Shown in pieces: positions 35,946 to 62,800 of a DNA stretch of 64,000 nt. The DNA is from Aldrovandia affinis (lineage: Eukaryota > Chordata > Actinopteri > Notacanthiformes > Halosauridae). The stretch spans positions 532,501 through 596,500 of the forward strand of contig JAINUG010000116.1 in the NCBI GenBank assembly GCA_029706075.1, written 5' to 3'. Made by a program: the position numbers and the translations under genes. The first letter of the stretch is position 1. Each line of letters starts with the position of its first letter. The notes beneath the pieces were generated by a model. The model saw nothing but the letters and a program-made list of their open reading frames with translations, did no database searches and was not told the origin of the DNA.

Positions 35946-36333
35946 ATTTATTACCACTCAACAACACCGAGCTTCTACATAATTGTTATAAAACAAAAAT
36001 ATATTTAAAAAAGAGAGAAATGTCATCTAAAAAATAACACTGACTGGAAAGACATGCACATCTCACCTGGTATGCATCTATTCCACTGATCCCTGCCCCC
36101 AAATACTCACAACCATCGCACTGCAATATTAAAGACACACATACAATGCAGGTCGGGTTACTTGGCTCTTTCTCGCTCTCTGGCTGGGATTTCCTTGGTG
36201 CCTTTGCCTCTGGTCTTGCCAAGGAAACGCAATCCAGTGTTCACGCTCCACCCACTTCAGCATTGTCTCATCACAATGTCTCTAAAAGCAATGAGTCCTC
36301 ATGCTGGGCACTGTTTCTCCACTGGACACACAG
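35946..36333 (-). other. probable 3' UTR of the collagen gene
   Basis: Repeat-free sequence after the TAG at 36334; a minus-strand AATAAA lies at 35947-35952. Extent inferred. Confidence 0.4.
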
Positions 36334-36483
36334 CTACAGAAAGCACAAGGGTCCCAGGACAGCTCTGAGGTCATGCCCCCAGCGCTCTCCCCTGCCCCGT
36401 ACACTCAGGTCTCTGAGGGGCAGCAGGTCCATGTCGTTCCCCTCGATCTCTGGGCTGCTCCGAACAGACAGCTGCACCTCCAC
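36334..36483 (-). CDS. collagen C-propeptide last exon c5
   Basis: 150 bp with TAG stop: [29 protein letters not shown], and final LGPLCFL, equivalent to the family's GPVCFL end. Less conserved than elsewhere in COLFI. Confidence 0.9.
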   Translation of the reverse strand: MEVQLSVRSSPEIEGNDMDLLPLRDLSVRGRGERWGHDLRAVLGPLCFL

Positions 36484-39400
36484 CTGCAGACACAAGACCA
36501 CCGCACCAATCAGCATCCTGACGTCGCTATACCACTATCTCACTACCGTGGCATACCACTCGATACCACTGCCCATTGGCTCTCTCCATCCCTCCAATTG
36601 TTCCTTTTTGTGAGAAAAGCAGATAAAGGATATTTATATAAAAATGCCTTGATTCACTGTGCCTGCACTGACATCTAGTGGACACAAGATTAACTGCAAT
36701 AACTATGGAAAACACTGTAGTTACCCACACTCTACGTCTGGTATGCTCATGCTGGAGAAACAAGTAGCTTCAGTCTATACTGTCACATCTTGTCACAGCT
36801 TGTTTGTCACCCTGGATAAGAGGGTCTGCTAAATGCTTAAAATGTCAATGTAAATGTAAAAATGTAATACTGCAGCTGTACTGGATTCTGAAGCGGTCCA
36901 TAAAGAATCACCCAAAAACCTTGGACATATCAAGCTCTCGGAGGAACAGTCTTCAGTGCCTACCTCACAACCGTGCCGTGACAACGTGCTGTAGGCTGAA
37001 TCTGAGAGTCTGATTTCTTTTTTGGTGTCTCCCAGAAAGCGTATGATCCCCGAGTTGCAGTTCTCCCTGTAGATGTCCCATTGTGGGTGTCAGCAGCGGT
37101 AGGACAAGCTATGGCCACACGCTGAGAGGCAGAGTTACTATGGAACCTCAGAAACCGGAGCTGGACTGCACTGAGGCCTACATACTCAAACTGGGAGAAA
37201 GACATGCAAACCGTTAAGGACAATAAGGAAGGATCAGATGTTTACAGGAACATTGCTCCATGTATTCGTATGAAGTATCTGTAGGCCTTTCCTAGGACAC
37301 AGGCCTGAGTGTCTGCCTGGATCTTTTAACCACATTAAGAATAATTTACACAAATTGGTCATACGTGGTTAGTCAGCTCTTACCCAGAAGCCATTGCTAA
37401 GCTGACTGAACCACTGGACTGCGGCATTGGAGCTCTTCTGCTCTGATTCCCATCTTCCAGCGATCTGCAGAGAGAGGAATCAAATCTGGCTCCAAAAATA
37501 GCATGAAAATTGCCAGCAGAAAATGAAGGGTCTGAACCGTAACCATGGTAATAGACCTCATTCACTAGGCCCATATTCCATTATTATAATAATACAATTA
37601 TATTACTTCTAAGTTCTACAACTTCTACTACATCGCAGTTGTTTGTCATCATGTTCACGATTCTCCAAAGTAAAGAAAGAAAAAGTATTCACTCCAGGAA
37701 AAACTTAGGCAATTCATAATTGATACATTCATAATTCACACAATCTCTGCAATCCAATCAAGGTAGATCTCATTTATATGCCAGCAATAATGGAAATTAA
37801 TAGGTAATTATCACCAATCATGGCCTGAAAGGCCCGGTCAATAACAAGGTTGTTGAGAAACAAACCTTGATCACTGATAAGATCGAGTCTTACCCTCGTC
37901 CTTCATTACCCAAACCCAAATGTTGACCCCTGGAACACTGTACATTTACATTTTACATTTTACATTTTAGGCATTTAGCAGATGCTCTTATCCAGAGCGA
38001 CTTATACAGTTTACATTTCTTTACACACAATCCATTTATACAGCTGAAGCAATTCAGGTTAAGTACCTTGCTCAAGAGTACGACAGCAGTGGCCCCACCT
38101 GGGCATTGAACCTGCAACCTCTGAGGTTCAAGCCCAGTTCCCTAACCACTACACTACACTGCTGCCCGCCACCTAACAGACTGTGCTCCATGCTGAGGCA
38201 GAGTAGAGCTCGTCACCTGAGATCTGACAGGAGCCACACAGGTCAGCCCCCCTGCTGTGAAGTTACAGAAGACGTATAGGGCATCAAATGGGCAGCCCTG
38301 ATTAGGATCCATGTAGAAATGCCCTGCAAGCATAAAGTCAAATGTAAACAAACGGACACACCTGTGTGCTGCTGTCATTACAGAACATATATATTGCCAT
38401 TTAGCAGACGCTTTTATCCAAAGCGACTTTACAGTAGTGAATACAGTAGTGAATACATACATTTTTCAGTATATGTGGTCCCATTGGGAATCGAACCCAT
38501 AACCTGAACGCTATCAACGCCATGCTCTACCGACTGAGCCACACAGAACCACACATACATGTTACATACAATACAGATATACAGTGTTATTGACAATATG
38601 TGTATACAGTGCCCCCAGTAAGCAGTAATACACTGACTCACAAAGTGCCCCAGAAGGACCCTACTTGGATATTGGGCAGTTACTGGAAATCGGCACAGGA
38701 CTGGTGTAGTGGTGGAGCTCCGGTACGTGGGGTTAACACGTGAGCGTCCGCTACAGAATGTGACGTGGATAAGAGCGTGATTAGTTCCCAGAGTTAGAGA
38801 CTTGAGTCTTTAGCTCAGTTGGCTAAATCACTCTCTTGTTGTGTCGGGATCCTTGGTTGGAAACTCGCTGCAGGCGGAACCAGCTCCGTTACATTGCCAC
38901 CAGGCTCAAAGGTATAGCAGCAGTGTCCCTAGGGGGCACTGGAACCTTTGAATGGCTTTTGGGTGAACATTACATTACATTACAGGCATTTAGCAAATGC
39001 TCTTATCTAGAGCGACTTACATTACTTTACATACAGTACAATCCATTTATACAGCTGGATATTTTACCGAAGCAATTCAGGTTAAGTACCTTTAGCTCAA
39101 GGGTACAACGGCAGTGCCTCACCTGGGAATCGAACCTACGACCTTTCGGTTACAAGCACAGTTCCCTAACCATTATACTACACTGCTGCCCCAGTGACTG
39201 TGTGAAGGACAGGGTGAAGACCCTGGCCACTGCTTTCTCCTGCTGCCGATGGACCCATCACTCGCCAGACTCACCGTCCGACAGGTGTGGGTGGGTCATC
39301 ATGAGCTCTGCGCAGGTGGTGGCAGGGTTGTCCTTGGTGCCGTCCGGCCAGGTGAACTCGTCTGCGGCTCTGCGTTTCATCTGACTGAACTGGGAGCCAG

Positions 39401-41793
39401 GCCTCCTCCAGGTCACCCTGTATCTCTGAAGACACAGAGCCATCCCACAGCCCCCCAAAACACCCAGTCCCTTACCTCACAGCTTTAAACACGGAAAGAG
39501 AACACTAATATAATATATTGCCATTTAGCAGACGCTTTTATCCAAACATGACAGTAGTGAATACAGTAGTGAATACATACATTTTCAGTATATGTGGTCC
39601 CATTGGGAATCGAACCCATAACCTGAACGCTATCAACGCCATGCTCTACCTACTGAGCCACACAGAACCACACATACATGTTACATACAATACAGATATA
39701 CAGTGTTATTGACAATATGTGTATACAGTGCCCCCAGTAAGCAGTAATACACTGACTCACAAAGTGCCCCAGAAGGACCCTACTTGGATATTGGGCAGTT
39801 ACTGGAAATCGGCACAGGACTGGTGTAGTGGTGGAGCTCCGGTACGTGGGGTTAACACGTGAGCGTCCGCTACAAAATGTGACGTGGATAAGAGTGTGAT
39901 TAGTTCCCAGAGTTAGTGACTTGAGTCTTTAGCTCAGTGGGCTAACTCGCTCTCTTGTCACGTCGGGATCCTCGGTTGGAAACTCGCTGCAGGCAGAACC
40001 AGCTCCGTTACATTGCCACCAGGCTCAAAGGTATAGCAGCAGTGTCCCTAGGGGGCACTGGAACCTTTGAATGGCTTTTGGGTTAACATTAGATTACATT
40101 ACAGGCATTTAGTAGACGCTCGTATCCAGAGTGACTTACATTACTTTACATGCAATCCATTCATACAGATGGATATTAACTGAAGGTCAAGTACCTTGAT
40201 CGAGGGTACAACGGCAGTGCCTCACCTGGGAATCGAACCTACGACCTTTCGGTTACAAGCACAGTTCCCTAACCATTATACTACACTGCTGCCCCAGTGA
40301 CTGTGTGAAGGACAGGGTGAAGACCCTGGCCACTGCTTTCTCCTGCTGCCGATGGACCCATCACTCGCCAGACTCACCGTCCGACAGGTGTGGGTGGGTC
40401 ATCATGAGCTCTGCGCAGGTGGTGGCGGGGTTGTCCTTGGTGCCGTCCGGCCAGGTGAACTCGTCTGCGGCTCTGCGTTTCATCTGACTGAACTGGGAGC
40501 CAGGCCTCCTCCAGGTCACCCTGTATCTCTGGAGACACAGAGCCATCCCACAGCCCCCAAAAACACCCAGTCCCTTACCTCACAGCTTTAAACACGGAGA
40601 GAGAACACTAATATAATAATATAATATACGCCATTTAGCAGAGGCTTTTATCAAAAGCGACTTACAGTAGTGAATGCATACATTTTCAGTATATGTGGTC
40701 CCAATGGGAATCGAACCCACAACCTAAGCATTGTCAGCGCCGTGCTCTACCTACTGAGCCACACAGAACCACTAAACCACTAAACTTCCAAACATCAGCT
40801 AACTTCCAACCACATGTATCGGAATCAAGCTTATTATATTGAAAGGAAAAATAAGAAGCCAATAGCAAAAACAAACAGTAAAGAGTCTCCTCAATTTTCT
40901 GGAATCAACCGGACTTATGAAATGTGATTGTGCACCTACATTCTGGGGCCTTGTTTTCGGTCCCGAATGTCCAGGGGGACCTGGTCTTCCCTGTTATAAA
41001 ATAGAGTTTCTTCAATAACACTGGGAAGAACATTGTGCTGTCATTTATTTTACCTTTGCAAGTGCAAAATTAGACTTTTTGAAAGATTAGAAATAGAATG
41101 ATGCAGAAATGTTTGCTCTGGCTGGGTGTTGCTGTCAAATACTACGCTGACATCTATACATTTCTTTGTGTGCACAATGTGTCTCAAGATTTACAAAATA
41201 TATTTTCAGCACCAAGGATATTATAAACGGGGGTGTACATAAGTGGTACGCCAGTACGCATTTGCATCCTCAAACGTTAATCGCGTACCAAACAAGACGA
41301 CAAACTTTTGAAACATAGTTAGTTAGTTAGTTAACTTGCCAGTGATGGACTGATCAAACTTAAAGTCACATATGTTTCCAAAGGTTGCTCGCAATTAACA
41401 TTTGAGGACGCAAACTGTGTACTGTTTATATATGGACCTTTCTACAGAGTCTCATGATGGTTGAGATTAGTCAGTAATACGGACAGACAGAATAACAGCC
41501 TGAGCCACACATTCTCACCCGTGGTCCTCGCGGTCCTTTCACCCCCTTGGGCCCGGCTATCCCTCGCAGACCGCTCAAACCCTGTCAACATCAGCACCAC
41601 ATCACAGAGGAAGCTGCAAGGCTTTGCAAAATGTTCAGTCAAACCAAATACCAGAGTTACATGGCACCCACGTGCCCATCACTCTAAAGTGTTAACTTAC
41701 CTTCTTTCCAAGCAAACCCTGCAAAATAAAATACACGCATTTTTAATAGAGAACCTTCAAAAATACAAAGCATCATCATTATCTAGTCTCATG

Positions 41794-41828
<35 letters not shown>

Positions 41829-44800
41829 TTAAGTTGACATTTCAATGGTAATCTGACCCATTTATGGAGTTTTACAATAGCAATCAAGGCACTGGTACTA
41901 TCTCAAGGGCGCAGCAGATTTGAACCCAATGGCTCTACCACCACAGGCCATGCTGCCCATACATTTTAAACTTTAAATTGTGTATAGGGCATTACACAGC
42001 ACCTGACACACTTCATTTAAGTTTCCAAGTTTCATCAGCATTGAGGAAACAAAGCCACTTACAGGAGGACCAGGGAATCCCTTACGCCCAGCAGGACCAT
42101 GAGGGCCAGTTTCACCCTGAAAGAGATCAGCTTCAGAATGCTGGCCTTATATTGTCATTGTTTTAACAAAGTACATTCTATTAAGAGATTTCCATGAGAA
42201 ATGAACGCATACAGCCAATTAGCAAAACCGCCTTTATTTTACCAGGAAGTCCCATTGAGATTCAAAATCTCCTTTCAACATAAACATAAACATAAATATG
42301 GAACATAAACTCAAAAGCCTGCGGAGTAACAGCCACTCACCTGCATACCTTTTGACCCGGACTGTCCTTTGCGGCCCGTCAGTCCCTGATAGCCCTAAAA
42401 CAAACAGTACAGCTGTCTGTCTAACTGTCCTGTGCTCTGTGAATGCCACGGAAAGAGCAAGCACCCATCTCTGAACAAAGTATCTTACTTTAGCCCCCAG
42501 CGGCCCGTCTGGTCCTGGTAGACCTCTGATACCAGTCATACCCTGTAACACAAGGAAGAGACCAGTTAATATAGCAGACACAAAGTCTCTATGAGCACTG
42601 GGGAGCACTGTGATGTGCCATGGTTTGGTCACTGGGTATGCAGCTACAGTACACTGACTTAAATACACAGTGGGTTCCAAACAGCTGGTACCAACAAATC
42701 AGTTGGTATTAGCAGTAGTGAATGCATACATTATTCAGTATATGTGGCCCCAATGGGAATCGTACGCACAACCTAAACGTTGCCAATGCCATGCTATACC
42801 TACCGAGACACACAGAACCACGCTCTACCTACTGAGCCACACAGAACCATGCTCTACCTACTAAGCCACACAGAGCCACGCTCTATCTACTGAGCCACAC
42901 AGAACCATGCTCTATCTACTGAGCCACACAGAACCATGCTCTACCTACTAAGCCACACAGAACCACGCTCTACCTACTAAGCCACACAGAGCCACACTCT
43001 ACCTACTGAGCCACACAGAACCATGCTCTATCTACTGAGCCACACAGAACCATGCTCTATCTACTGAGCCACACAGAACCATGCTCTACCTACTAAGCCA
43101 CACAGAACCACGCTCTACCCACTGAGACACACAGAACCACATGCTGCATATATGATGTAAGTTTGTAATGTTACTAGTGACTGACAAGATGACTCATTGG
43201 CACAGGAAGTGAAGAAGTCCCTGCCCTACTCGGATCTGCTGGTGTTTGATGGCGGATAATACCTTCGGTCCTTGATCGTTGTCCATTCCCTTCTCCCCTC
43301 CTAGTCCAGGAATCCCCTGCACAAAAAAACAACATGTCAGCATTAAATCAGCCCAAATAAATCTAAAGTTAAATGACAGGACTCAATTGTGCATGGCTGG
43401 TCGTCCCGTCAGCAAGGACACCAACGTGAGGACCGGTGGAGAATGTTTACTCTACCCTTGGCCCGACGGGTCCTGGAGGTCCTTGAATCCCCCTTGGGCC
43501 AGGAACACCCTACGAAACCAAAAATGACAAATAAATGTGCTGAATAACACATACCAGCATGTAAAGCATGTAAAATGTAAACCATCACTACAATTTAGAA
43601 GCAAACATTTGTGTATAGATGGAAGAGTACAATACAATACAATAGAACTTTATTAATCCCCGAGGGGCAATTTGAATTTGGGCATGGTAAAAACGGACAG
43701 GAAGCAGACACAGAAGTGTAAAAAAATTATATTTAGTCCACATGCGCGGTAGGCATTTCACGTGCCAAGCTCCAGGTAGAGCCTAGGATCATCTTTTAGT
43801 GCCTTGTTCACCAGGCAGATGGCCTTGGATATGAAGGATGCTCTGCGTCGATTGGTAGAGCCCCTGGGGAGGTGCAGACGGCGCCCGAGAGGGAGCATTT
43901 GACATTGGGGATAGAGGACATGGGTGCTGTCCCCCAGGATGTCCTGGGCCTTCCTCCTGGCCTGCTGCTCATAGAATGAGACAAGGCTTCTGAGAGGCAC
44001 CCCAGTGATTTTGGAACAGGTGTTTACTACGGATTATGCGCAGCGAACGTCCGGTCGGCTTCCCTCCCCCCTCCCTGGGGCGGACAGCCAATCGCCGCCC
44101 CTGGTGACACTCCCGGCCAGAGCCGACTCTGGCGCGGTGGGGAATCAAACCCCGGTCACTGTGGCCGGTGTCGAACGGTGTAACCACTGGACCACGCGGA
44201 AGGCCTGTGCGGTTCGGGTTTTTAAGAGCAGGAGTACCTTATGTCCTGTGGCTCCTTGATCCCCCATGAGACCCGGTGCCCCAACTGAGCCCTGAGACAA
44301 ATCAAACTCAATTTCACTTTAAGGACAACTGATGGAAAATGTATCAATGGTGCAAGCCCCTGAGAGATGATCAATACACAGATTAAAAAATATACTAATG
44401 CAGCAAATACAACAAATGCAAACACAAATTAGGCTAATAAATGCCACTGTAACATTCATAAAATAAATCTCTCCCTTAAACAAGAAAATACATGTCTCAG
44501 GGATGTGATTTTTTTCCTGATTAATTAGGACATTTTTATTTTCAGACCATAGATATCTTGTGGACATGTGTATGTCCATAAGCATACACATTAAGAAATG
44601 TTGCACTCTTTGACAGCTGATAGCAGGAGAGAATGTTCAGCAAATAAATCCAAATAGCCAGAGATATTTAGCACCAGAAAATCTGCATTTCCTGAATAAT
44701 CAGGAAAAATCACATCCCTGCATCCTTATCAAATGAACACACTGAAGTGTGGTTTGCAGTGTCATGCTGTATTGGTGTATGTTGAGGCAAGAAAAATTGA

Positions 44801-47800
44801 TAAGGAAGTAAAATCAGAGTGAAGGTAGAGATAATGCAGTGTACTAACCTTCCTTCCAGCCTGGCCAGTTCTCCCAGGACTTCCCCTGTAACCAATGGCC
44901 CCCTAGAAATGCACAGTTTCCAAATCCAGTGAACCCAACACAGTGAGGCTTTCAATTACAAGAGATATACTGACATCTTCCTGCTGTAGGACACCTGTTA
45001 GATTAACAGTTCAGGTCTTGCATCACAGTTGATTTAGGATTGCCACCAGCCAAATGTCTGCCTGACTCAGCAGAATTAATGATTTATTATTAGTTTTAAT
45101 GAAGCCTGTTGTTACCTTTTGTACAACTTTAAAAGTCTTCATATAAAGCGTGTGTAGTCACTTGCCTCTACGGCCTCACCTTTTACTTATAACATTTTAA
45201 GGGGGCTATCGATTGCCATTTTAACTTAAACTTTATCTGAGATATTTAAAATTGCTCCTATTTACATATTTTGCAGTAGAGATGTGTGTCTTCAGGAGAA
45301 GGGACTTTGCATGGACGTGTCCAGATACAGAATAACCAAAACATTGATAAGCTGAGTACTGGGCAACCACATCACAAAAAAAGACATTAAAACTAAACAA
45401 AAAACTTACCGGATCTCCTTCATTTCCTACAACACCCAGAAGTCCATCTAAACCACTTTCTCCCTGAAACAGGGACACAGAAAATTGAATTGAGGTATGG
45501 TGCAAACATTTCCATACAATTGGGGAAGTGCATACATTTTGGATTCACATGGGGAGATACCAGGGACAGTGCCCTGAAAGCATCCCTATGGAAGTCTTGG
45601 CCTCCCCCAGTTTGGCAGCAAGTGCATAGCGTGCGGCACTATGGACAGCCTCCATTTACCTGAGTCACAGCATCACAGGCAGCACAAAGCCATCTCAAAG
45701 TACACGGCTGTCAGGTTTGGCTTTTTCATCTACATTGGCTGAACTGGCACTGAGTTATGCATTGAAAATCCAGCTAGCATTTTGCCTTTTTGTTTTCAAA
45801 GCAATCATATTGCCTTAACAAGAACACACATCTGAATTGAGAATCGCAAGAAGACTTATTTCCTGAAAGAAAGAAACAATCCTTCCTGGTCCTTTCCCCA
45901 GTGAATATAAAATGCCACTTTCCTAACATGAGCACTGTTGAGGGCACTTTGGGTTTCTATCTTGGCTGTGGAACATCGTTCTTTTCCTTCTCTGGAACAT
46001 CACTTTGAAATGGGTCGACATGAAGACCCTGCTGGTCTGCTGCTGTTTCACTTCAACCAAAATGCTTGAATCAAGTTAATTTAACAAACGTCTGTACCAT
46101 AGATGGTTTTATGTGGTTCTGTGTGGCTCAGGAGGTAGAGCATGGCGTTGGCAATGCTTAGGTTGTGGGTTCAACTCACATTGGGGCCACATACACTGAA
46201 AAATTTATGCATTCATTACTGTAAGATGCTTTGGATAAAAGCGTCTGCTAAATGGCATATATTATGTGAATTTAAGGAACGTTCAGTTGTTTGATAAAAC
46301 TACGAACCGCCTCATTTTGTGTGCACTTCTGGCTGTAACAAAGTCATCTGCATACAATGACATTATGGGATTTATCCTGATCCATGCAGAATAATGTCTG
46401 TCATACTTTAAAGGGCCGGAAATACTTACCATTAATCCAGGCCTCCCAATCGGTCCAGGCCTTCCCTTCAGACCTTCCATTCCCTGCTATTATGACAACA
46501 ATCAGAATAACAATTCAGCATAATAACAGAAAGCACAATTCTGATATCACTTTTGGTCTGTAAATTGGAAAGGATTGAAAAGGTTGTCTGGTGTTCGTTA
46601 TAATACAACCTGCTGTTCACGTCGTCTCAGTCCATAACTTATTTCAGATGTACAATATTTATCACAATTTATTTTACTTATTTTTTATCAAACGATTTGT
46701 TTCTTTGATCTCACAATTTAAAATGGGAGCCATATTTGTAGTCCCATCCCATTCATGCAACATCATCCAAAGTGTGTGCTGCTAGCCAATCACTACTTTT
46801 CACTCTGCAGTCCAGCAGCTGAGCTGTGCATTGGAGGACAACGCTTCAAGTGCAGCTGGTGCTGGCGCACTGGCATGATCAGGGTTTGATTCGTGACTGC
46901 CAGGAACATCACTGCTCTGTGGACTAGCGTTTTTAACTGATTGCAATAATTAACTCACCTGTTTGCCGACATCACCCCTGAGCCCTCTCCTTCCTTGGCT
47001 GCCTTTCAATCCCTCCATAAAACAGGAACAAGCAAAATGACAGTTTAGTCCAAAAATCTATTTAAAAAACAATCACCCATATTTTCTCAAAATTTGGAAT
47101 GCACAAATGGTGTGTATTCATGGTCATTGCTGTGACCTCCTCTGTCAATGCGGAAGAGCACAGACAAGCACACATTCTCCCGCAAAGAAAATGACGTCAG
47201 GCTTGCACTTCCTTTCACTCTGCAGTCCACCAGTTAAGCTTTGCATAGACATTGAGTCAGAGGAAGAACCTTCATGTGTAGCTTGTGCAGTCAGAGTGTG
47301 GGCCAACTCATTGACCAGAGGGGGGGTCGCTGATGTATGACGAGACACGCACGTCCCGCAGACTGAAATCCCGCCCTTACCCAGGTGATGCTGCAGGTAA
47401 AGCATGTTGGAGACCAGACCCTGACGCCCATCCGCCCACTATAACAATGCTTTAACAGGATGAGCCACCCAGCAGCCCTTAAAATCCCTTTATAATTATA
47501 CCCAAATAATAAAATACAAAACTTGGATGGACGGATAGGATGGATCTAACTCTAACCTCTCACCTTGGGCCCTTGTTTGCCTTTGTGTCCTTTGTAGCCC
47601 CGTAGCCCTGGGGTCCCAGTCCTGCCCTTGGGGCCTGGGCTCCCTTTTCTCCTAGGTGCCACTGGCCCCTGAAAAGCCACACGACAGAACATTCACTCAG
47701 ACGGTAGGAATGTTGATCTCAGACAACATTTAATTAATGCTGAAGCACGAAAACACAAACTGACCTTTTTGCCTGGATTTCCAGGCACTCCCTTGCTCCC

Positions 47801-50800
47801 TTTCAAACCATGCGGTCCCTTGAGAAGAACAGAAGACTAGATGAGCTCCAATAGGAACACCTACATGTAAAAAATCCTACAACATTTCCAAGGCCACTGG
47901 AGAGCCTACCTGTTGTCCTATGTCACCATGGATACCAGGTTTTCCAAGTTCCCCATAATCGCCCTGTGGAGAGATAAAAAAAAATATATATATTTTGTCC
48001 CATTTTCTCTCAATTTGGTAGCCAATCCCCCCCCCTCGTATTGTGAGTTCGCTGCCGTAGCCGTGACCAGTAGTGACGAAAGCGAAGTATCGACAGGCCG
48101 TCGACCGTAACTGGGTACTACAGAGCCACTCCTGTGGCACTCCACGGCCAGAGCTGACTCTGGCATGGCCAGTGGGATTGAACCCCGGTTGCCGTGGCCA
48201 GCATCGAACGTTGTAACCACTGGATCACGCGGGAGGCCCGTGGAGAGATATTAATGGCAGTTCCTTTTTCATTGTTTAAATGTGAATCAATGGTACATAG
48301 TGTATATTTTATGAATGGTAAATCCTATTATACAGAGCTAAAGCTCACACAGTGTAGAGTTACACGCAAGTGGATTCTCCCTAGAATGATGTAATGGCAC
48401 ACTATACCTTAGGTCCACGAGATCCAGGTTTCCCCACAGGACCAGTTGTATTTCCTGGCATACCCTGTTAGGGAAAGAAAAAAGTTATCTCATGCCCTTT
48501 ACGACCAAGTCAAAACTGACACTAACATCAAATAAAATAAGTTTACCAGGGAGTACCCTTCCATAACCCCATTACTTACTTACTTGAGCCCATCGCCCCT
48601 AGGGGAGCGTAGGCCATTGATGATGGTCCTCCACTGAGCTCTGTTCTGGGCAGTGTTCTCCAGCTCTGACCAGGTATGACCACACGTCTTGGCATGTGCC
48701 TCCAGGTCCTGCCTCCAGGTGTTTTTGGGGCGACCCCTCTTCCCTTTTTCCTTCTGGGTTCCAGATCAGGGCTTGGCGAGTGGTGTTGATCTAGGGGGCT
48801 TTCAGAGGGTGTGACCGACCCAGTTCCACCTCTGCCTTCGGAGCTCTTCCTCCACTGGGACCGGTCCAGTTCCTCTCCACAGGTCCATATCGCTGACCCG
48901 GTCCCTCCAGCTCAGGTGTAGGATTCTCCGTAGGCAGTTATTGATAAATGTCTGTGGCTTCTTCGTGTCTGCGTTTGTCTCTCTCCAGGTCTCAGAGTCG
49001 TACAGAAGCACAGACTCGACCGTGGAGTCGATCAGTCGCAGCTTCGGTTTGGTCTTGAGCCCCAAACATTTCACAATGTGATGATTGCCGTTCTCGCCTT
49101 TTGGATTCTTGCTTTGATGTCCTCGTCTGTAGCCACCGTATTTATTTATTATACCTCCCAGGTAAGTGATTGACTCTACGTCTTTCAGTGGCTCCCCTCT
49201 GAGAGTGGTCGGGTCATCACATAACCCCACGATTGTACCTTATTTTCACCACTGGACACACAAGCCATACATTTGATAATAATAAAGACAAGACAAACTC
49301 ACCATTGATCCTTTCGGTCCTGAAGGGCCAGGTGGTCCAACTTTTCCCTGTGCTCCCTAAACCATAAAAAGACAGGATGAGTAAAAAAGTTTACAGGATA
49401 AGTCCAAACTGTCTCTTGGTGGCCCATTCATCTGGGAGTACTGCATAGATAAACAATCAATTCATTCTCATAGGTAAATGTAATCTTCCCATAGCTCAGT
49501 GGGTAGAGCATGGCACTGGCAATGCCAAGGTTGTGGGTTCGATCGCGCGTAAAAAACGAGGTTCTGACTCTCTGTGGTCATAAAAGATCCCATGGCGTTT
49601 CTCAAAAAGAGTAAGGTGTTAACCCAGTGTCCTGGCCAAATTCCCAACCCAGACAATATATATACAATTAATTCCCTCCCTCCTTGCCTCTCCACTGTGT
49701 ATCTGATGTGTAGTGAGTTTGTGCCCTATGGCTGCCGTCGCATTCACACAGGTGGGTGATGCACATTGGTGGTGGCTTGAGGTGAGTTGTAAAGTGCTAT
49801 CATTGTAAAGTGCTTTGGGTTCCTTGACAAGTGCTATATAAATCCAATGTTCAATTCAATTCAATTCAATCGATATGATTTCGTGTCCAGGCAAGCAAAT
49901 GGTGGATCTTAGACCTTCTATGACAGCATACTCACAATGAGTCCTGCTACACCTTTCTCTCCTCTGGCGTCATCTGGTCCGGGATTCCCCACAGGACCGT
50001 ACTTTCCGGCCAGGCCTGAGGTACCTCTGACACCCGGCGGGCCCTGCAGACAGACGACCAAATGGCCAGAGGTTTCAGCTCTCTGCCCGTCTGACCTATT
50101 GCTTACACTGATCTCTTGCGCGAACTATGATTGATCTTACCATGTATTAATGCACATCTTGTAAGTCGCTCTGGATAAGAGCGTCTGCTAAATGCTTAAA
50201 ATGTCAATGTAAAAATTTACTTGAATTAAGAAATAGTTCAGAGTACAACTTGATCATTCACGCATTCAGCGATTAAGGTGTGATAGAAGACCATCTTCCG
50301 GCAGATAGCTCAGACTCCAGTGTAGTGACTCACTTTCTCTCCAGGGGGTCCAGGGTTTCCTTTCTCCCCTGGGGCCCCAGTGTAACCCTGAAACCAGGCA
50401 GACAAGGGAACAATTAACACTGGCTTTCTCTGCCCATGAACAACACTAACATATTGAGGCCTTACAGTCAACATTTACCAAAGACTTATGAGTGTTCAAG
50501 CACAATAGAATAAATGCTCTTAAAAAATATGGTCACCCACTTCCTTCCCTGGTGGTCCCTTTGGTCCTTGAAGTCCCTGAGTGCCTGGCTCTCCCAGGAC
50601 CCCCTTCAGCCCTCTGCCAATAAGAGGTCCATTCCTTCCTTTATCACCCTATGGTTAAAAAAACAAACCCAATAAACACCATTTCCCACTGTGCACCTCT
50701 TCACAGTCCGATATACTTTAAATCAGGACTGCTGGAAGTTCTTTATGCAAGTAGATCAACATCCTAATACTGTCAATATGTGTTATTGACAAAGTGATCA

Positions 50801-53800
50801 ATTGATCAGTTAAACCGATACTCACATGTTGCCCCTTCTGCCCTGGTGGCCCCAAAGCCCCCCTTAATCCAGTTGGGCCCTAAAACACAGCAACACAAGT
50901 CCTTTGCTTTGCAATAATACGAATCCTCTTCTACATTTGCAAATGATAATGGTTACTTTTTAGATTTATTGTTAAGACTAAGTACCATTAGAATGGTACA
51001 CTATATCTGGAATTTTGACCAAAAGCTTATTGATTCTAATTAGAATTGGATCTAACACTGCAGACATTCAGAATTTGCACAAATTCATATCCAAAATGTT
51101 GCATATGACAGCTACTACTGAAATACTGTAATAAATAATCAATACATTATAATCAATCTACCTCCTCACCATCGACACCAGCAACTCCCTTCTCCCCTGC
51201 AAGTCCCTGGAGCCCCTGTGTGAAGATGCAAAGGAACGCAAAGATGCAAAAAAGGTAAATATGAGCAATACTCATTGTTAATAAGAACATAAGAATACAT
51301 CATGACGAGAACAGGCTGTTCGGCCCATCTAGGCTCGTCATGTCCTAATCTAAAGAGTATCTAGTACTGCATCTAGCCTGGACTTGAATAGCCCCCAAGT
51401 GTTTCTGCCTCTACTACCCGACCTGGCAAGCTGTTCCAGGCATTGACAACTCATAAATATGTCTCTCTGCAGTTGTGTCAATGCTAAGAGTAGAGGTTGG
51501 GGTTATTCGTTGGTTGTTTAAAGGAGAATTGTATAACAAAAGGGAATGGCACCTAAAGACCAATGATTACCTTTTCCCCTGTGTCTCCGGGTGGGCCTGG
51601 GGGTCCTCCAGTCCCATCTTTGCCCTAAAAAAGTGAAAAAAGGTACTTCAACTTCAGTATTCAACTCCCTCTCAGGATTAACCTAACCATCCAAGATGAG
51701 CCACTCACAGGCTAGCCTCACTTGTCAGGTTCATAACTATGAGTCTGACTAGTTTCTCACTTTGGTTTATACATTCTGGGGATGTGGGCCTCACAGGTGG
51801 TCTAGTGGTTACAACGTGACCAGGGTTCAATTTCACCGGCCGCGCCAGGGTCATCTCTGGCCGGGAGTGCCAGGGGCGGCAATTGGCTGTCCGCCCCAGG
51901 GAGGGGGGAGAGAAGCCGACAGGAAGTTCGCTGCGCACAGGAGTGGCTCTGTAGTACCGGAGTTATGGTCGACAGCCTGGCGAGTGCCATCTCGGAGGAG
52001 ACAATACTTTGCCTTTGTCACTACCGGTCTCAGGGCTACGGCAGCGAAATCACAATACGAGGGGGGGGATTGACATGAAAAATAGAGGGTGTAATTGGCT
52101 ACTAAACTGGGAGAAAACAAATTATTGAAAAAATTATAATAAATCCGGGGATGTACTTTGCTAATAAAAAATGAATAGAGAGGGTGTGTGAAATGATAAA
52201 CCGTTTAGGCCAACAAAAATCCATCCTCAGAAATCTGCGGCCACCAATCAGATTGCAGAAAGCCTAGGCCAGAAAAGTTAACAAATTATCCAGTCGACAC
52301 AACTCACAGGGTAACCTGGCACACCATGGGGCCCCAGTGGTCCTGCTGGCCCCGGGTCCCCTGCTGGCCCTTGCAGGCCTATCTGCCCCCATAGCCCTAT
52401 ATTACCCTGTATACCCTAGAATGAAAAACAATGTTAACAGCCCCTTCAAAAATACATTACGACAATGCCATACATACTCAAAGGAAATGTATGCAGTAGC
52501 GGTATGTCAATGCGGTTCTGTGTGGCTCAGTAGGTAGAGTGTGGTTCTGTGTGGCTCAGTAGGTAGAGCGTGGTTCTGTGTGGCTCAGTAGGTAGAGCGT
52601 GGTTCTGTGTGGCTCAGTAGGTAGAGCATGGTTCTGTGTGGCTCAGTAGGTAGAGCGTGGTTCTGTGTGGCTCAGTAGGTAGAGCATGGTTCTGTGTGGC
52701 TCAGTAGGTAGAGTGTGGTTCTGTGTGGCTCAGTAGGTAGAGCGTGGTTCTGTGTGGCTCAGTAGGTAGAGCACAGCGATTGCCAACACTTAGGTTGTGG
52801 GTTCAATTCCCACTGGGGCCACATATACTGAAAAACGTGTGCATTCACTACTGCAAGTCTCTTTCGATAAAAGCGTCTGATAAATGGCATATATTATATT
52901 ATAATTAGGGCTGGGACTTTAACGCGTTAATTTCGATTAATTAATTACAGAAAAAATAACGCGTTAAAAAATTTACGCATTTTAATCGCACTATATTTTT
53001 GCACTCCAGACACCACGGAACGTTTCTCAATGCTAAACATGTTGCAGCTAGCGTGAAGCCAGAGCTAACGCTGATCAGGCTAACGTTAGTCCTAGTACGA
53101 GCAAGCAGAGTCGCCAAACCACACTCGACCAGATGACGGGGTTCAGAGCCAAGATGAGTAAGACCACGTCTAACAAAGTAACCAACTCACTGGCTCACTG
53201 ATTGCCGTGGACTGTAGACCACTTTCGGTGGTCGAAGATAAGGGGCTAGAAAAGGTGCTACAGATTGCGTCGTCTGACACAATTTATGAACTGCCATGCA
53301 GAAAGACAATTTCGAAAAAATCCAGCAGCTTCTTCCAAAGGTCCTTTGCACTATCATATTCCTAAAATTGCTGCACTTTGTTAAAAATTGCACTGGTCTG
53401 TGTAGTAGCTAAAATAAACAAGATTTTGCTGCTTAAACTTATGTATATGTCTATTCATTGATTCACTCATATACCAAAATCCATTTGAATTGAAAAATGT
53501 TGCTTCTCGTGTCAAATATTGATATGCGATTAAAATGCGATTAATTTCGATTAATTAATTACAAAGCCTCTAATTAATTAGATTAATTTTTTTAATCGAG
53601 TCCCACCACTAATTATAATCAATGCATTGAAGAGCATCATCAGTTTTGTGAAGCATTTACAGAAATGTCTCAGGTAGGTGTCGTGACTACTATTCGAGTC
53701 ATCTTCTTACGGGAGGTCCACGGTACCCCTTGGGCCCCGGTAAGCCTTGCAGGCCCTGCAACAGCGAGAGAAGAGATGGCCATGAGTGCCTGGAGATTTG

Positions 53801-56800
53801 GCCGGAGATCATCTTGTAGGAGAAGAAATCCCTGCAAGACTTAACACTTACTGGACTTCCAGGAATCCCCTTCGGTCCCCCTGGCGCCCTCTCTCCCTGA
53901 ACCAAAGGATGTGTAAATTAACCATTAATATTAATGAAACATTATTTATTCAGGGTTTTTAGCCAAGCAATGAACATCACCATTTACTATGCAGTCATCA
54001 CGTATTCAAGACATATTTCCTTACGAATCACCCGTTCGTACATCAGTGTTAATCTTCGAGCTCGTAAATATTCTATGGCATGTGCCATGCAAATCCAGTG
54101 AGTACAGCTTTGCTGGAATTTCTTGAAGGAAGATCAAAGTCAAATGAAATATTCCAGTTCTCATTACAACTTTCATTACACATTGCCGATAATGCACCTC
54201 ACTATCTGACTGCTTGCTTGCTAATTATATTTCAGCAAACTTCTCACACATGACACATACAAGTCAAAACTGGTTTTGGTAATTGCAACAAACAAGAGAC
54301 ACGGGCGTAAATGATCCAGTACCTTTTGGCCAGGACTCCCGGGTGGACCGTTCAGACCAGTTTTACCTTTAATGCCCTGAGCAAATATACACATCAATAC
54401 ATTTAAGAAAAACAAAGAGAGAGATCACAATAACTACATACTGAGATAGTATTACAGAACAAGGGCTCAGACATCAAACATTTAATAAGCAATAATTTTG
54501 CTTATTCTGTGTGGCTCAGCAGGTAGAGCATGGCGTTGGCAACGCTTAGGTTGTGGGTTCAATTCCCTCTCAATTCCCACTGGAACCACATACATACAGA
54601 AAAATGTATGCATTCATTACTGTAAGTTGCTTTGGATAAAAGCATCTGCTAAATGGCATATATTATTATATAAATTTTGCTTGCTTCTGACAAAAAAACA
54701 TATGATATTTTTGCTTACAACAATTAATGGATGACAGTATGCAGTGCATGATGGGACAGACCACCAACACAAGGGATGAACTCCGTTGTAGCTTTGAGTA
54801 AACCATAATACAACTTTGAGCCTAAACTGGAGGTCCTCTGCAGACAGTGAAGGCCTCTGGACTCACCCTGATCCCTGGACTTCCTTTGACACCAGTAAAC
54901 CCCCTGCTACCAGGATCTCCCTGTTTAAAAATAGCCACATAATGGAGATCATGTTACACACAGATAGGTCTTTTGCACGATCTTGACAGAAAATCTGGAT
55001 TATGTTGCATCTGGATCAGAGGGATTTTACTCGGCTAATGCTAAAGACAATGGATAATGCTAACGCTAATTCAATGGAAATATCAACTCTGGATATCATG
55101 GAATCACAGCTCATAACTAAACTAACTTAGACTAGTTCTCCAGCCTGCAGGATTCATTCAGTAATTTGGCTGCAACTATTCAATATTTAAGTCTTGAAAT
55201 AGTTCCTTGAATATTTCAGGGTTCTAGGAAACTAAAGGGTAGCATAGATGAGAGAGAGGGGGGCGTTCTTCCTGCAACACTTGATCAGGTATTTAGTTCA
55301 TTAGTTGAATTTCAATCAATGTGATCAAAAACTACAACTCCATTTCAGCAAATCCCTATAATATGATTGCAGATATAGAATATACTCACACTATTCCCAA
55401 CAGGACCTTGAATTCCTGGACCTCCATTCTTCCCCATTTGCCCCTGAGAAATGTAAATGGAGCCACACGTCAGACATTGATTCCGTGGTCCTGGAAGATC
55501 ATTCCACCACCGAGGGGTCAGGACAGAGAAGAGGCGAGACCGCGAGGAGTGGGTGCCGGGCGCCCAGAGGGATGGGACAGTCAGTTTGCCAGAGGAGGCG
55601 GAGTGGAGAGGTCTGGCTGGGGCGTAGGGTGTGATGAGTGTCTGGAGGCAAGGGGGAGCAGTTCCTCTAGCCGCTTGGTAAGCCAGCACCAGTGATTTGA
55701 ATTTAACGAGATAAATAAAAGCATGAAATAAAAATTCGAAATATAGTACCTTTTGCCCCCGGGGTCCAAAATTCCCATCTAATCCTGGTTTACCCATAGG
55801 CCCCTATGGAAAAGGCAGATATGATTAATCAAATTCAGTATGCAATACCCCATTCAATTCATTACACCAATGAAAAGGCAGGATCTTACAGGACCACCAT
55901 ATATTCCATCCACTCCTCGATTCCCTGGCAGGCCTTGCAATCCCTAAAGGAAGAAACAAAATTCTCAAATTAACAAATGACAATGGAATAAAATGATTGT
56001 ACTGTGCTGAATGTAATCAATCGCAACAAATATAACTAAATAAAGATATATATGAGTCAAATATGAATGTATCAAGTTGCCAAATAATCTGATCCCTTAA
56101 TTATAACTTTCAGGAAGGTCCCGTACTGTGGGTTTGGCCACATAGGTCACACACCTTCAAACGATAATCTCTGGCTACACCCCGACATTCGTAATGCAGT
56201 CAATTAATCTGTACTTCATCACTATCCACTGCAGTAGATCATTTATACCTTCATCCGCACTTTTCCATAAACATAAACTTTTCCGTGGTTCTGTGTGTCT
56301 CAGTAGGTAGAGCGTGGTTCTGTGTGTCTCAGTAGGTAGAGCGTGGTTATGTGTGTCTCAGTAGGTAGAGCGTGGTTCTGTGTGGCTCAGTAGGTAGAGC
56401 GTGGTTCTGTGTGGCTCAGTAGGTAGAGCGTGGTTCTGTGTGTCTCAGTAGGTAGAGCGTGGTTCTGTGTGGCTCAGTAGGTAGAGCGTGGTTCTGTGTG
56501 TCTCAGTAGGTAGAGCATGGCATTGGCAACGCTTAGGTTGTGGGTTCAATTCCCACTGGAACCACATATACTGAAAAATGTATGCATTCACTACTGTAAG
56601 TCGCTTTGGATAAAAGCATCTGATAAATGGCATATACTATACTATACTACACACTAAGATAATTATAACAAATTAGAATACACACCTTGGGACCCTGCGA
56701 TCCAGTTACACCCAGAACGCCAGGTCTTCCCTATGAGATACAACCATAAAGTTTCAATCCAGCAATAACTATCTCCACACAGCATATTTAAGCTTCTGTA

Positions 56801-59800
56801 TTCAAGCCATTATCTGGAATCAATGTTATAAGCCCATAAAAACATAATCTTTTAAGGATATAAAATAACATTTAAAATCGAGAAGCATGCTGTTAAACTT
56901 AGAATATAGAAAAGTGTACTTTAAAAAATATAGGAAACATCAAGAAGAATGCTATGATATGATATGTTTCGCCATAAAAAAAAGTTGGTGCTTTCCCTTC
57001 TGGATTTTTTTTGGGGGTACTTTTGATATTGGGCCAATAATAGTTATTACTGAATAAAGTCTTATCACGATATCTTGTAATGAACATGGATGTAGTGCTG
57101 AGGACTTCTGGTTACTGGGAGAAATTGGTGCTTTACTCGATTGACACAAAACATGAGAAAGGGTAAAAAGAAATTAGGTATGAAACAGCCTATTCAATTA
57201 CAATGTTCTTTAAAAAAGGCTCCAGGGTGGCGCAACGGTAAAGGCACTCGCCCGGAGTGCAGGTTGCCCATTGCAGCTGGGATTCGAACCCGGCTGCACC
57301 AGTCCGGCTCTAGTTGGGAGTGCTGCTAGGGGGTGGCAATTGGCTGTCCGCCCCAGGGAGGGGGGAAGGAAGGCGGCATGAGCTCGCTGCATGCATAGAA
57401 AGCTTCTCTGGCTGTTTGGAATCACGGTCGGCGCTGAACATGCTCCGTCTCGGAGGAGTTTGCCATTCCTACCACTACCAGTACCAGAGGAGTGGCTAGT
57501 CCTGTAGCTGCAGATGGTGGACTTGTGGGGGGGGATAGTTGGATTAATAGAGGGTACAATTCTGTGGTTCTGTGTGGCTCAGTAGGTAGAGCATGGCGTT
57601 GGCAACGCTTAGGTTGTGGGTTCAATCCCCACTGGGACCACATATACTGAAAAATGTATGCACTGTAAGTCGCTTTGGATAAAAGCGTCCGCTAAATGGC
57701 ATGTATTATTATTATCCGCTAAATGGCATGTATTACAATTGGCCACCCAAATTGGGAGGAAGAAAAACATGGAAAAAAATCTGAAAAATTCATCCCTCAT
57801 TTTAAAGAAATGAAATGAACAAAAGTACATTTGAGATAAAATAAAAATGTGAAATACACAAGAACCTTAATACCGGGTTCTCCTTCAGGTCCTTGTTCTC
57901 CAAATTTCCCACTTTTCCCCTGTAAACAACAACACACAAAGTCGGGTGGTTAATCAATTGTCCTGTTAGGGAGGGCTAATTGTTATAAGATAGAGATATG
58001 TCCACTGCTGTTGTAACTTTTTATTATGTTTTATCTAAAGAACACAGAAGCAACCCCTCTGAAAACTGGAATTCTACCAGCTGAAAAATGCAACATTGCA
58101 CATATCACTACCTTCAAGAACTATGGAAGGAGAGACTGCTTATTGGTTTGCATTGATCATGCTGACCCAATGAATGGTCACTGGTTTGGTCATTGATAAA
58201 AAGGAAAACGCTCCTTCTATTACCAGAGGGCCTGGCAAACCAACGAATCCTCCCCGCCCAGCACGACCCTTTGTGGAAATAATACACACATATTTTACTG
58301 CATTGTTACACAATGATAAATGCTGTGATAAATGATTCAAATCAATATAAAGATGTGCAAATGCATAACATGAATACATTTAGTGCATTATGTTTATGTG
58401 CGTTCTCTGCATCAGCCTTAATAAGGACTAGGGATGTTAATTATTATTGATGATCGATGAATCGCTGTTAAGAATTTGAGCAATCAAGCATATCAAATTA
58501 ATGATTAGGTATCACTTTTTTTAAGAAGCATCCACTGTCGGACAGCCTTCATTTCAAAAGGAATATTGTTTTCGTCGTTAGGCCTACTGACTGTCCTTTC
58601 AGTAGGCCTAACCATTTTTAATTCTCTGTTTTATGCTGTTAAAATAGGCCCGTGTCTCAAAAGTTTGAATAAGTTAATAATAAAATACACATTTTGTATT
58701 CTCTGTCATACGCTACATTTTTTGTTCTTTTCGTCTTTTTTTAAAGATGAATCAATTAATTGTTTGTTAACGTGGGCAACGATCAATCAATGAAATGTCT
58801 TAATATTAGCATCCCTAATAAGGAATAAGAAAGTTATTCATTCAAGTTATGAATGAATAACTTCACAGTTGACAACAAAGTCATGGTAATATCTGCCGCT
58901 ACCTTCATGCCTCTCGGCCCGACAGGTCCTTGTACACCAGGGGGTCCTCTGGCCCCCTACAGAGCACAGTGATTTACAGGTCATGAGAGATTAACCACAG
59001 GAAGCAAGCAGTACTTCATATGGAAATCGAGGTATAGTATCAGATGATTGATATGGAGTAATTCATATTGTATGTTTCGGCGTATAAAACCTCAGTGCGG
59101 ATAAACTCACCTTCAGCCCATCTTTCCCTTGCTTTGCCATCTCCCCCATTATCCCGTCATGACCCTTTCAGAACAGAACAAGAACAGAAGCCAGTCCCAT
59201 AAGGACTGAATAAAACCACCATCTCCCAACGGATTCAAATCTGAGCTACTCATATTCAATCATAATTAATGTTCAAGTTTATCAGATTATGCACTTAAAC
59301 GCACCAATGTTCAGGTGATGGTTGTTTTTAGGTTGTTAGGTTGTTTAGGTTTTTTAAGGTTGTTTGTGAAGACTTTAGGTTTGACTGTAAGGGACAATGT
59401 GTACAGTGCACAACAGGACATGAATGAGGAGACCCCACTCACTCTGTGGCCTTGATATCCTGGCGGGCCTGGTGGGCCTATTTCACCCTGAAGGCCTGGC
59501 AATCCACTTCGGCCTTTGAATCCCTGATTCCCTGGAGGCCCAGGGAGTCCCTGTTCAACAGACCACAGTCTCTTTAAACCTGAACGTTGCAGGTTTGATC
59601 CCAGGTGGGGCACTGCTGTTGTAGCCTTCAGCAAGGTACTTAACCTGAATTGCTTCAGTAAAATATCCAGCTGTATAAATGGTTTGTGTGTAAAGAAATG
59701 TAAACTGTGTAAGTCGCTCTGGATAAGAGCATCTGCTAAATGCCTGTAATGTAATGTAATGTTGAACTAACTCTTTAACTGAATCTGCATTCTGCTCAGT

Positions 59801-62800
59801 GGAACCTCTATATGCTTTTGCGTTGTAGAGTGTAGCCAGGAGTTCTTCAAACAGAACAAAACCGTGAAAATATTTTACCTTCAATATGCTTTAATATGCT
59901 TTGAAAACTTTCCCAAGGTGGAAGGCAAAGAGCAGGTAAAGAGAGACCACAATAAGCCAGTATGCGTGCCATTTAAGAGATGGATGCTTACAAATGTTGG
60001 GCAAAATTTGTGTTTTATGTTGAACATAATGTGCATTGCCTAGACTGGGGCCCAGAGCAATGAATACACAGTGCACAGACCTGGAGACCATTCCCAGTAA
60101 GTGTGCCAAATCCATAGCTGTAGCATAGTGAAGGCTGTCAGAAGTTACTTTAAAAAAGGTGAAACAATCTGGCAACTTTGTCTAAAAGGTTACAGATCCT
60201 GCCACAAAGCTTATGAATCAAACTGTAATAAATTCAGAATATAAGCATAAAACAGGAGCTGGAAAAAATAAGGCAGTTTGTTCCAATTTGAATAGGCAGT
60301 AACAAAATTAGAAAGGGTATTGCTGCCCCCTACTGGTCGATGCTTGAATTATAGATTTGAGAGATTAACTGTGATTGCTGTAATTCATGGTGAGATGACA
60401 ACATTTCCAGGTACACTAAGAAAGCCCCTTGGAAAAAGAACTGTAAAATCAACCACTATATGACTGAACAACCTGCAGGCAGGTTTTTCGGGCAGGCCTG
60501 CAGTTTCTTATACAAATCAGGCTCAACATCTTGGCCTTACATCACTAAATATGTTTGGGTCTGTTCTTATTTTTCAGGAGAGTCTGACCTTGCTCTGAGG
60601 TGCTCGGAGCCCGAGAAGAGTCTAAACCACAAAATCGTTTTTCATAAATATGACGTCTGGTTGACATCCTACAAAGTGTAAGGTTGCTTATTGCATTAAG
60701 TGCGCACAATTCCTGAGACTCTATGCTAATTGGCCACATTTTCCCTTTGATATTTAGTCTCATTAATAAAGCTAATCCTTAAAGATTTAAGAATCTGGAT
60801 ACACCGGATGATCCCCTTACCTCCAACCATTACCTCGTGATGAACCAGAAACGTTTCATTAACAAATATTTGAATGGATGGAAAGAGACAGAAATTCAGA
60901 ACGCCCAAGGTTTTACGCCCACCTCAAACAGGGAAAATATAATGAGGCTTGACAACTTGTTATTCAATCTTATGCTGGCACAGGCTACTGGCATGGTCTG
61001 TCCTACTTTTAGTCCACAATAATCTCATTATTTGGTACATACAGTATATTTTTCGAAAAATGATAAATGCTTGACTCACTAGAACCAATCTACACATATA
61101 ATAGTCCTGAAACTATTTACTTTTTATAATTTCAGATTTTTTTCCCATTTTTCTCCCAATTTGGTACCTTCTTCTAATTCAACTACCCCCCCTAGTGGTA
61201 TGACCTCACCACTGCAGCTCTGGGACTGGCAGTGACAGAAACAGGACCTCCTCTGAAACGCAACTCACCAAGCCATCGAGTGTGACTCACAGAGTCACAG
61301 CCAGGGATCGAACCCAGGCTGCAGTGGGCAACCTGCACTTAGAACAGGTGTCTTTAGGGGCGGTCGATAGCGTAGTGGTCTAACGCACCACACTTTGGCT
61401 GGTCTGGTGCGGTGTGTGCTGCCTGTCAGGGACGCGGTTCGAAACCCGCGTCTCTACCAGACCGACCCTGGTCATCAGCCCCGATCGGGGGCGGTGTTTG
61501 GCTGTCCGCCCCATTGGGAGGAGGGAGGGTGAACCAGCACAAGTCCGTCGAGGAGCAGGAAAAGGCGTCTGTGGTAGGGTTCCGTCATGGAAGAGGTGGA
61601 TCTATCGGCCCGGAAGTGTCTCAACCCAGAGGACGGGCGGCGGACTTGAGGGGGAGGGTGAATGGAAATAAATAGACGGTATAATTGGCAACCAAACTTG
61701 GAGAAAAACTGAAGAAAAAAATAAGAACAGGTGCCTTTACCATCTGGGGGCCCTGTGCCTGAAATTAATTTTAAGCTCGGCAGAAAACCTTGGATGATCC
61801 AAGGTCATTCGTCCAGCCAAACACACCCCAGGGCATAATTCAGTTTAAAAGGCTGGCTGTACATGAGTAAACTGCAAACTGATGTAATGTGGAAGCGTGG
61901 TACCAAAGTTTCACAGTGCGGTCATGACAAAGCCCTGTTTCTACTTACCCGGTCTCCGTTGAGCCCAGGATCACCCTTCTCACCCTTTTCAGCATTTTGC
62001 CCCTATAAAACATAAACAGACAGGGACAGACACATGCACAGATAAAGCTACAACAAAAGGAAAGACCTCACACTGAAAGAATGGGGTAAACAGAATTTGG
62101 CATTACTGTATTGCATGAGTAAATTATTGAACTATTAATAAATATATCACTCGAAACTTCAACAATGGAGTGACATGCAACAATTCCCCTGGCTGTTGGG
62201 AACAAAGCTCAAGCCAAATAGAGATAAAGGAATTTCTTTAAGAAATCTTACTGGATCACCTGAGGGTCCGGACTTTCCGGGCATTCCATTGGCTCCCTGA
62301 AAGACAAGAGGAGGCATGTTTAGTAAATCAATAAGTCCTAAAATAAAGTCAGTCAAAGAGTTTATTCAACAATCACGTGCATAAACTGTCTGAAATGTTT
62401 CTGTCCTGTTGAATTATAACAGTCCAAAGCTTTAACATAAAGACTCATCTAATGTGGCGGCAGTGTAGTGTAATGGTTAGGGAACTGGGCTTGTAACTCA
62501 GAGGTCGCTGGTTCAATTCCCAGGTGGGGCACTGCTGTTGTACCCTTGAGCTAAAGGTACTTAACCTGAATTGCTTCAGTAAAAATATCCAGCTGTATAA
62601 ATAGATTGTATGTAAAGAAATGTAAAACTGTATAAGTCACTCTGGATAAGAGCGTCTGCTAAATGCCTAAAATGTAAAATGTAAATGTAAAATGTAATCC
62701 TAAACGGTCACTTAACAATTGAAAGAGTCAGGTTGTGAGAGTGATCAGGCCTGATTGATTGGCCCTGTGTGTGAGTGATGAGTGATCAGGCCTGATTAAT

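Follow-up and report, generated by a model that had tools for sequence, protein, structure and literature searches.

Can a collagen chain of fibrillar length stay in use when its glycine-X-Y (Gly-X-Y) repeat is broken at many places, or do such breaks mark a gene in decay? This question is raised by a collagen gene, here called T, in a stretch of 64,000 nucleotides (the window) that corresponds to positions 532501-596500 of contig C180 in the genome assembly of the halosaurid fish Aldrovandia affinis (1.22 Gb, 2576 contigs). All genomic results reported here derive from the sequence letters of this one assembly. A preliminary description of the window had offered two readings, an interrupted fibrillar-type (COLFI) collagen not yet described or a gene in early decay. 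We consider it reasonably likely, from the sequence, that T encodes a full-length, fast-evolving fibrillar procollagen that belongs to an old interrupted lineage outside clades A, B, and C and is represented by three loci linked to Cav2-like genes.

The 3' part of T lies on the minus strand and runs from window position 63245 down to 36334. Thirty-nine exons that lie wholly in the major helix (Gly-X-Y), all in phase 0 and of 45, 54, 57, 63, 105, or 108 bases, were located at 41519-63245. A junction exon (40940-40990) on the same strand contains the end of the helix and the start of the telopeptide (TRPQN) and has a GT donor; the number of helix-bearing exons in the window is therefore 40, and not 41 as given in the preliminary description. 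The gene extends past the window with 12 further major-helix exons upstream, and the whole major helix consists of 52 exons, 3033 bases, and 1011 residues. Neither a stop nor a frameshift was found in the 52 exons. Acceptor AG was present in 52/52 pieces and donor GT in 51/52, the remaining piece having been cut by us at the helix end. The absence of stops and the AG/GT splice sites noted earlier were thus confirmed for the window and for the whole helix. Ahead of the major helix is a short collagenous stretch, and a 440-codon open frame is located farther upstream (L010, C180:613782-612463). A Pfam search with this 440-codon frame gave no match; it may represent the variable region of the N-propeptide. 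For another upstream open frame, a TSPN identity, as expected in the N-propeptide of clade B, was considered and was dropped from our claims, as Pfam found nothing and the PDB matches were only to designed proteins or due to chance.

We re-read the breaks in the repeat. In the whole major helix, 8 of the 336 expected glycines are replaced (five by Ala and one each by Ile, Asp, and Asn), one residue is inserted, and one is deleted, at nine places in total. Eight of these places are in the window, all on the minus strand. Gly is replaced by Ala in GQN AEK GEK (GCT, 61991-61993), in GEM AKQ GKD (GCA, 59135-59137), and in GER APG GPK (GCG, 53885-53887), the last of which is in the first of two consecutive 45-base exons. 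The replacements by Ile in GPL IGR GLK (ATT, 50619-50621) and by Asn in GMD NDQ GPK (AAC, 43278-43280) each involve two base changes in the codon, and Asp is found in GPD DAR GEK (GAC, 49969-49971). The sequence GNTT-G (48444-48455) carries one extra residue in a 57-base exon (48464-48408). In GPVAPRRKG (47642-47668), Gly is changed to Ala at 47659 and one residue is missing, the exon being 105 bases long instead of 108; this sequence can also be parsed as two consecutive substitutions with a deletion. The ninth place, a Gly to Ala change in GSDANSG, is outside the window (C180:603060-602953). The preliminary description had reported the eight breaks in the window and had assigned them to the right exons, although its positions were those of exon ends and the altered codons start elsewhere. 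T therefore does not have the essentially unbroken Gly-X-Y repeat of fibrillar procollagens, to which clade C, with two interruptions, is the known exception.

The helix is followed by C-propeptide exons A to E, all on the minus strand. Exon A (40378-40528) contains Cys1, whereas Cys2 is replaced by Met. Exon B (38217-38323) contains a DPNQGC..D stretch and Cys3 to Cys5, and the former aligns with the solved C-propeptides of types I and III in PDB. Exon C (37384-37464) stands apart from its neighbors, which is also the case in L036 of clade B; exon D (36964-37190) has 227 bases with a net frameshift, and exon E (36334-36483) ends in GPLCFL and a stop. Pfam identified COLFI from exon A to the first half of exon D (E 1.1e-29). 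Chance does not account for dozens of in-phase, ordered Gly-X-Y exons with this domain after them. The COLFI domain and the helix of ~1000 residues in 45/54/108-base exons place T among the fibrillar collagens. A tandem duplicate of exon A was found at 39275-39425 (minus strand), inside a repeat of ~1.1 kb; splicing of both copies into one transcript would change the reading frame. Neither this duplicate nor the frameshift in exon D appears in the preliminary description. A DNA search of the same genome with window 36300-38400 detected no further copy of exons B to D among the best candidates scored. Exon E and the region following it (window 36713-35829) have an inverted copy at L017 (C180:505861-507164), which is 95-97% identical in two pieces and contains a tandem array with units of ~38 bases.

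A search of the genome gave 59 COLFI matches on 18 contigs. The C-propeptides on two of these contigs, C446 and C136, were read in frame (Pfam COLFI 6.4e-39 and 4.2e-38), and the counterpart of exon D in both genes is 183 bases long and in frame. T, C446, and C136 formed one group supported at 100/99 in all three C-propeptide trees (11, 11, and 13 sequences). In the 13-sequence tree, clade A (types I, II, III, and V alpha 2; five rows, 97/96), clade C (two rows, 100/100), and clade B (types V and XI; three rows, 98/97) were each recovered without T; two of the three clade B rows are human sequences entered by hand, and the clade names of the fish rows are our own reading of the sequences. Left out of the trees were the clade A loci L004 (exon B unread) and L006 (frame fault), L008 (the same gene as L001), L003, L005, and L007 (no exon A), and C2033 with the other four clade B-like contigs (no letters or a partial domain). 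Nesting of the T group with COL5A1 or with the COL11A1-like rows was rejected (p 0.04 and 0.046). In an 11-sequence tree, placement with clade C was rejected for T alone (p 0.004) and for C446 with C136 (p 0.005). Two motifs are common to the three genes: exon A contains PATTC, and exon E contains D(L/M)DLLP(L/I)RDL. At the 41 columns invariant in the clade A, B, and C rows, T keeps 27 residues, C446 27, and C136 30. Between C446 and C136, the ratio of nonsynonymous to synonymous substitution (dN/dS) was 0.21 with dS 0.80 (190 codons of exons A, B, D, and E). The 20 kb examined per contig yielded 13 helix exons for C446 and two for C136. The 13 readable exons of C446 contain two Gly to Ala breaks among 84 glycine places.

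The three loci also resemble each other in their surroundings. Each of the three contigs has a calcium-channel gene, which we recognize as Cav2-like and for which Pfam itself gives only Ion_trans (at C180:646-655 kb, C446:2.354-2.372 Mb, and C136:2.236-2.266 Mb), in each case on the same strand as the collagen gene, on its 5' side, and ~30 to 165 kb away. Six loci in the genome match the first part of the channel query at 74% identity or more. Three of them are on the contigs of T, C446, and C136, and no COLFI match was found on the other three (C1796, C1786, and C1546). On the far side of T from the channel gene, outside the collagen gene, is a sterol O-acyltransferase 1 (SOAT1)-like gene (14233-23667, minus strand). 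Its PDB search gave a near tie between SOAT1 (6.4e-15) and SOAT2 (2.2e-14), and the label rests on this result together with an alignment to a human sequence entered by hand. Human SOAT1 and CACNA1E are on 1q25, CACNA1B on 9q34, and CACNA1A on 19p13. Given these positions, an origin of the three loci in the genome duplications of early vertebrates would fit, the pair C446 and C136 being later; this dating is inferred.

We then asked how the state of T compares with neutral decay. In a model in which eight glycines are lost by drift, ~51 substitutions are expected over the helix and a 399-codon piece of the upstream frame. Under this model, the probability of no frameshift was 0.017 at an insertion/deletion ratio of 0.1 and 0.002 at a ratio of 0.15, and that of no splice-site hit was 0.08. 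Two or more glycine codons altered at both positions, as in the Ile and Asn codons, were obtained in 0/2000 neutral runs. Ala accounts for 5/8 of the replacements in T and 7/10 in T and C446 combined. The neutral probability of this excess was 0.0014 for T and 5e-5 with C446 at a transition rate ratio of 2, and 0.0056 and 0.00035, respectively, at a ratio of 1. In the portion of PMC9405839 available to us, Gly replacements are ranked from mild to severe in the order Ala, Ser, Arg, Val, and Asp. Judged from the sequence, recent neutral decay of T fits poorly, and the evidence favors long constraint with tolerance of some breaks.

Several observations weigh against the interpretation of T as an intact member of an old interrupted lineage. 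The net frameshift of exon D falls between COLFI columns 141 and 158; owing to it, the second half of the domain lies in a different frame and reaches only E 0.075, below the cut-off, and a PDB search with the second half of the C-propeptide found no relative. The exon A duplication spans window 38443-40772, and two compared 300-base stretches are 99% identical. At the other end of the gene, Pfam and PDB searches of the candidate exon provided no name for an N-propeptide domain. In the trees, the position of the T group as sister to clade B was the best (78/76), and positions as sister to clade C (p 0.28) or clade A (p 0.19) were not rejected; T is on a long branch, and the placements are tentative. 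Exon-wise alignment of the helices of T and C446 scored 81, with a mean of 48.5 (standard deviation 11.7) and a maximum of 79 for shuffled exons. In the neutral model, the probability of no stop was 0.17, which is weak evidence alone, and that of no frameshift at an insertion/deletion ratio of 0.05 was 0.13, which is also weak. Finally, Cys2 was found to be not required for chain association in earlier work cited in the part of PMC2852846 at hand. A claim that individual breaks are common to T and C446 was dropped, as the helix alignment was too weak; a genome search with the joined C446 helix exons gave 43 generic collagen matches, and T was not among them.

Some of these points speak for a fibrillar collagen gene in decay, in which constraint on the helix and the C-propeptide has been lost. 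The frameshift in exon D and the duplicated exon A would be expected of such a gene, as would nine broken helix places, the loss of Cys2, and the long branch. Christiansen and colleagues speculated about incipient non-functionalization for zebrafish col27a1b (excerpt of PMC2794549). But the 52 helix exons of T are without any pseudogene sign, be it a stop, a frameshift, or a lost splice site, and the two doubly hit glycine codons and the excess of Ala are at odds with drift. The invariant COLFI columns are kept as in C446, and the one net frameshift of T has parallels in further conserved exons of this assembly. Since the neighboring gene and another collagen show similar faults, we consider an assembly error its most likely source. 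An exon of the SOAT1-like gene (window 19700-19850, minus strand) passes through three frames in succession with no space for introns, a pattern suggestive of two assembly faults of one base each close to C runs; this copy was the only SOAT1-like one found in the genome. Similarly, a clade A collagen exon in L006 changes frame in a conserved stretch (bases about 1475-1530), likely through an assembly fault. We therefore regard decay of T as improbable, although a very recent loss of function may have occurred. The reading as an interrupted COLFI collagen is favored by the relatives grouped at 100/99, the shared Cav2-like neighbor, the breaks in C446, and the conserved columns, and early decay is the less fitting of the two readings proposed at the outset.

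A second alternative, to which we give a similarly low probability, is that T is a very divergent copy that belongs to one of the known clades, with clade C (types XXIV and XXVII) the likeliest, or to the stem of clades B and C. Types XXIV and XXVII are described as having a 997-residue helix with two interruptions, one being a Gly-X-Y-Z imperfection and the other a pair of consecutive Gly substitutions (PMC2852846, in part). Our clade C genes (C1851 and C1856) are like T in their COLFI domain, in exon order over ~11 helix exons, and in an interrupted helix. The exon run 45-45-(54+54)-54-54-54-108-54-108 is found in both T and the col24/27-like gene C1851. It is followed by the 57-base exon with one extra residue, after one 54-base exon in T and two in C1851. 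C1856 apparently has the 57-base imperfection exon as well, judged from its translation, and the GNTTG break is probably, on this comparison of sequences, a shared family feature. Both T and C1851 have a 63-base exon near the 3' end, and in each of them the leading exon of the 45-45 pair carries a Gly to Ala change, at different triplets. An intron insert with open frames (window 48580-49240, minus strand), which by eye resembles a piece of a long interspersed nuclear element (LINE) retrotransposon, is located just before the 57-base exon of T, at the place where C1851 has an additional 54-base exon.

Helix alignment of T with C1851 scored 139 (shuffled mean 82.3, standard deviation 20.0, highest 128), with C1856 113 (78.5, 24.1, and 133), and with C2033 66 (50.4, 12.8, and 80). 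The breaks counted in the comparison genes are lower bounds, since our exon finder prefers unbroken exons: the 42 exons of C1851 contain at least one Gly to Ala change besides the 57-base exon, the 34 of C1856 contain at least one Gly to Ala change, and none was found in 14 helix exons of C2033. This alternative also has in its favor the p value for the T family as sister to clade C, the best tree (the T family with clade B), and a Ciona chain related to clade C that has many imperfections (PMC2852846, in part). By contrast, the T helix has 1011 residues against 997 in clade C, with ~10 departures from Gly-X-Y against two interruptions. T has a short collagenous stretch before the major helix, and it lacks Cys2. 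Clade C is also marked by the absence of a minor helix. Exon C is kept in T but was not seen in the pieces of C1851 and C1856 that were read. The rejected placements of T alone, and of C446 with C136, in clade C stand against this alternative. T resembles clade B (L036) in its helix of fibrillar length, in exon C as an exon of its own, and in the weak best sister place, but its helix is interrupted and nesting within clade B was rejected at p about 0.04.

The least probable explanation, which we consider very doubtful, is that the breaks themselves are assembly errors: single-base faults do occur in coding exons of this assembly, but those elsewhere alter the frame, whereas six of the breaks in the window are clean substitutions of a codon, the remaining two change whole codons and leave the frame intact, and C446 has breaks too.

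The description of such a collagen as not yet described must be limited in part. One of the eight breaks in the window, that in the 57-base exon, is a known clade C feature, and extra breaks are known from other chains related to clade C. Zebrafish col27a1b, likewise a fibrillar collagen of a fish, has more interruptions in its helix than the human gene, but the excess is a single (third) interruption, and the gene is of type XXVII in the tree of its authors, according to the text available from PMC2794549. The Ciona 906 chain, which is related to clade C, has numerous imperfections and glycine substitutions in the same account that describes types XXIV and XXVII (PMC2852846, in part), but it is an ascidian chain that we liken to T by description. 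Our limited literature search found no report of a fourth vertebrate fibrillar lineage, and annotations of other fishes may carry such genes under another name.

We also considered the cysteines of the C-propeptide in relation to chain assembly. Both Cys2 and Cys3 are kept in the human fibrillar chains known to form homotrimers, and those that lack one or the other are heterotrimer-only, as determined by C-propeptide expression in the part of PMC6181919 available. T has Met at Cys2 and keeps Cys3, whereas C446 and C136 keep Cys2 and have Ser at Cys3; none of the three genes has both. Each of them should thus need a partner, because T is without Cys2 and its sisters are without Cys3. The cysteine pattern also varies elsewhere in the fibrillar set of this genome: Ser takes the place of Cys3 in L005 and L007 and that of Cys2 in L004, and L036 has Gly at Cys2. 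The T chain would be secreted and would fold from its C-propeptide. We would expect no disulfide-linked homotrimers from T, C446, or C136, and T would enter heterotrimers in which its partners are its sisters or some other fibrillar chain. T and its sisters would be complementary in their cysteines, and a partner with both cysteines would perhaps be needed as well. The breaks, which are mostly Gly to Ala, would be tolerated flexible points in a minor collagen. The likeliest product would be a thin, flexible minor fibril, by analogy with type XXVII, for which 10-nm non-striated fibrils were reported by one group and filament networks with thin banded fibrils by another (PMC2852846, in part). 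In mice, a Gly to Cys change in type XXVII is reported to be tolerated with mild effect (accessible part of PMC3242791).

One 29-base unit, GGTTCTGTGTGGCTCAGTAGGTAGAGC, forms three arrays in introns (window 42789-43139, 52514-52772, and 56284-56520), and the same letters form the start of a tRNA-like repeat seen throughout the region. A 41-base array is present at window 62735-63164.

Jawed vertebrates are credited with eleven or twelve fibrillar genes in three clades and invertebrate chordates with four, and a second clade C gene of hagfish is unplaced (PMC8887668, in part). Tentatively, and from sequence comparison, T, C446, and C136 may represent a fourth ancient chordate lineage that was lost in tetrapods and kept in some fishes beside Cav2 genes, with chains that would all be heterotrimer-only, flexible, and interrupted; its counterpart could perhaps be the Ciona 906 chain or the second hagfish clade C gene. 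If the three duplicated loci are indeed a fourth, interrupted lineage, the vertebrate count of fibrillar genes and clades would change, and a chain of fibrillar length could bear ~10 departures from Gly-X-Y under long constraint. The three genes would then offer natural examples on which to test the cysteine code of chain assembly and the tolerance of glycine replacement, the latter being relevant to brittle bone disease.

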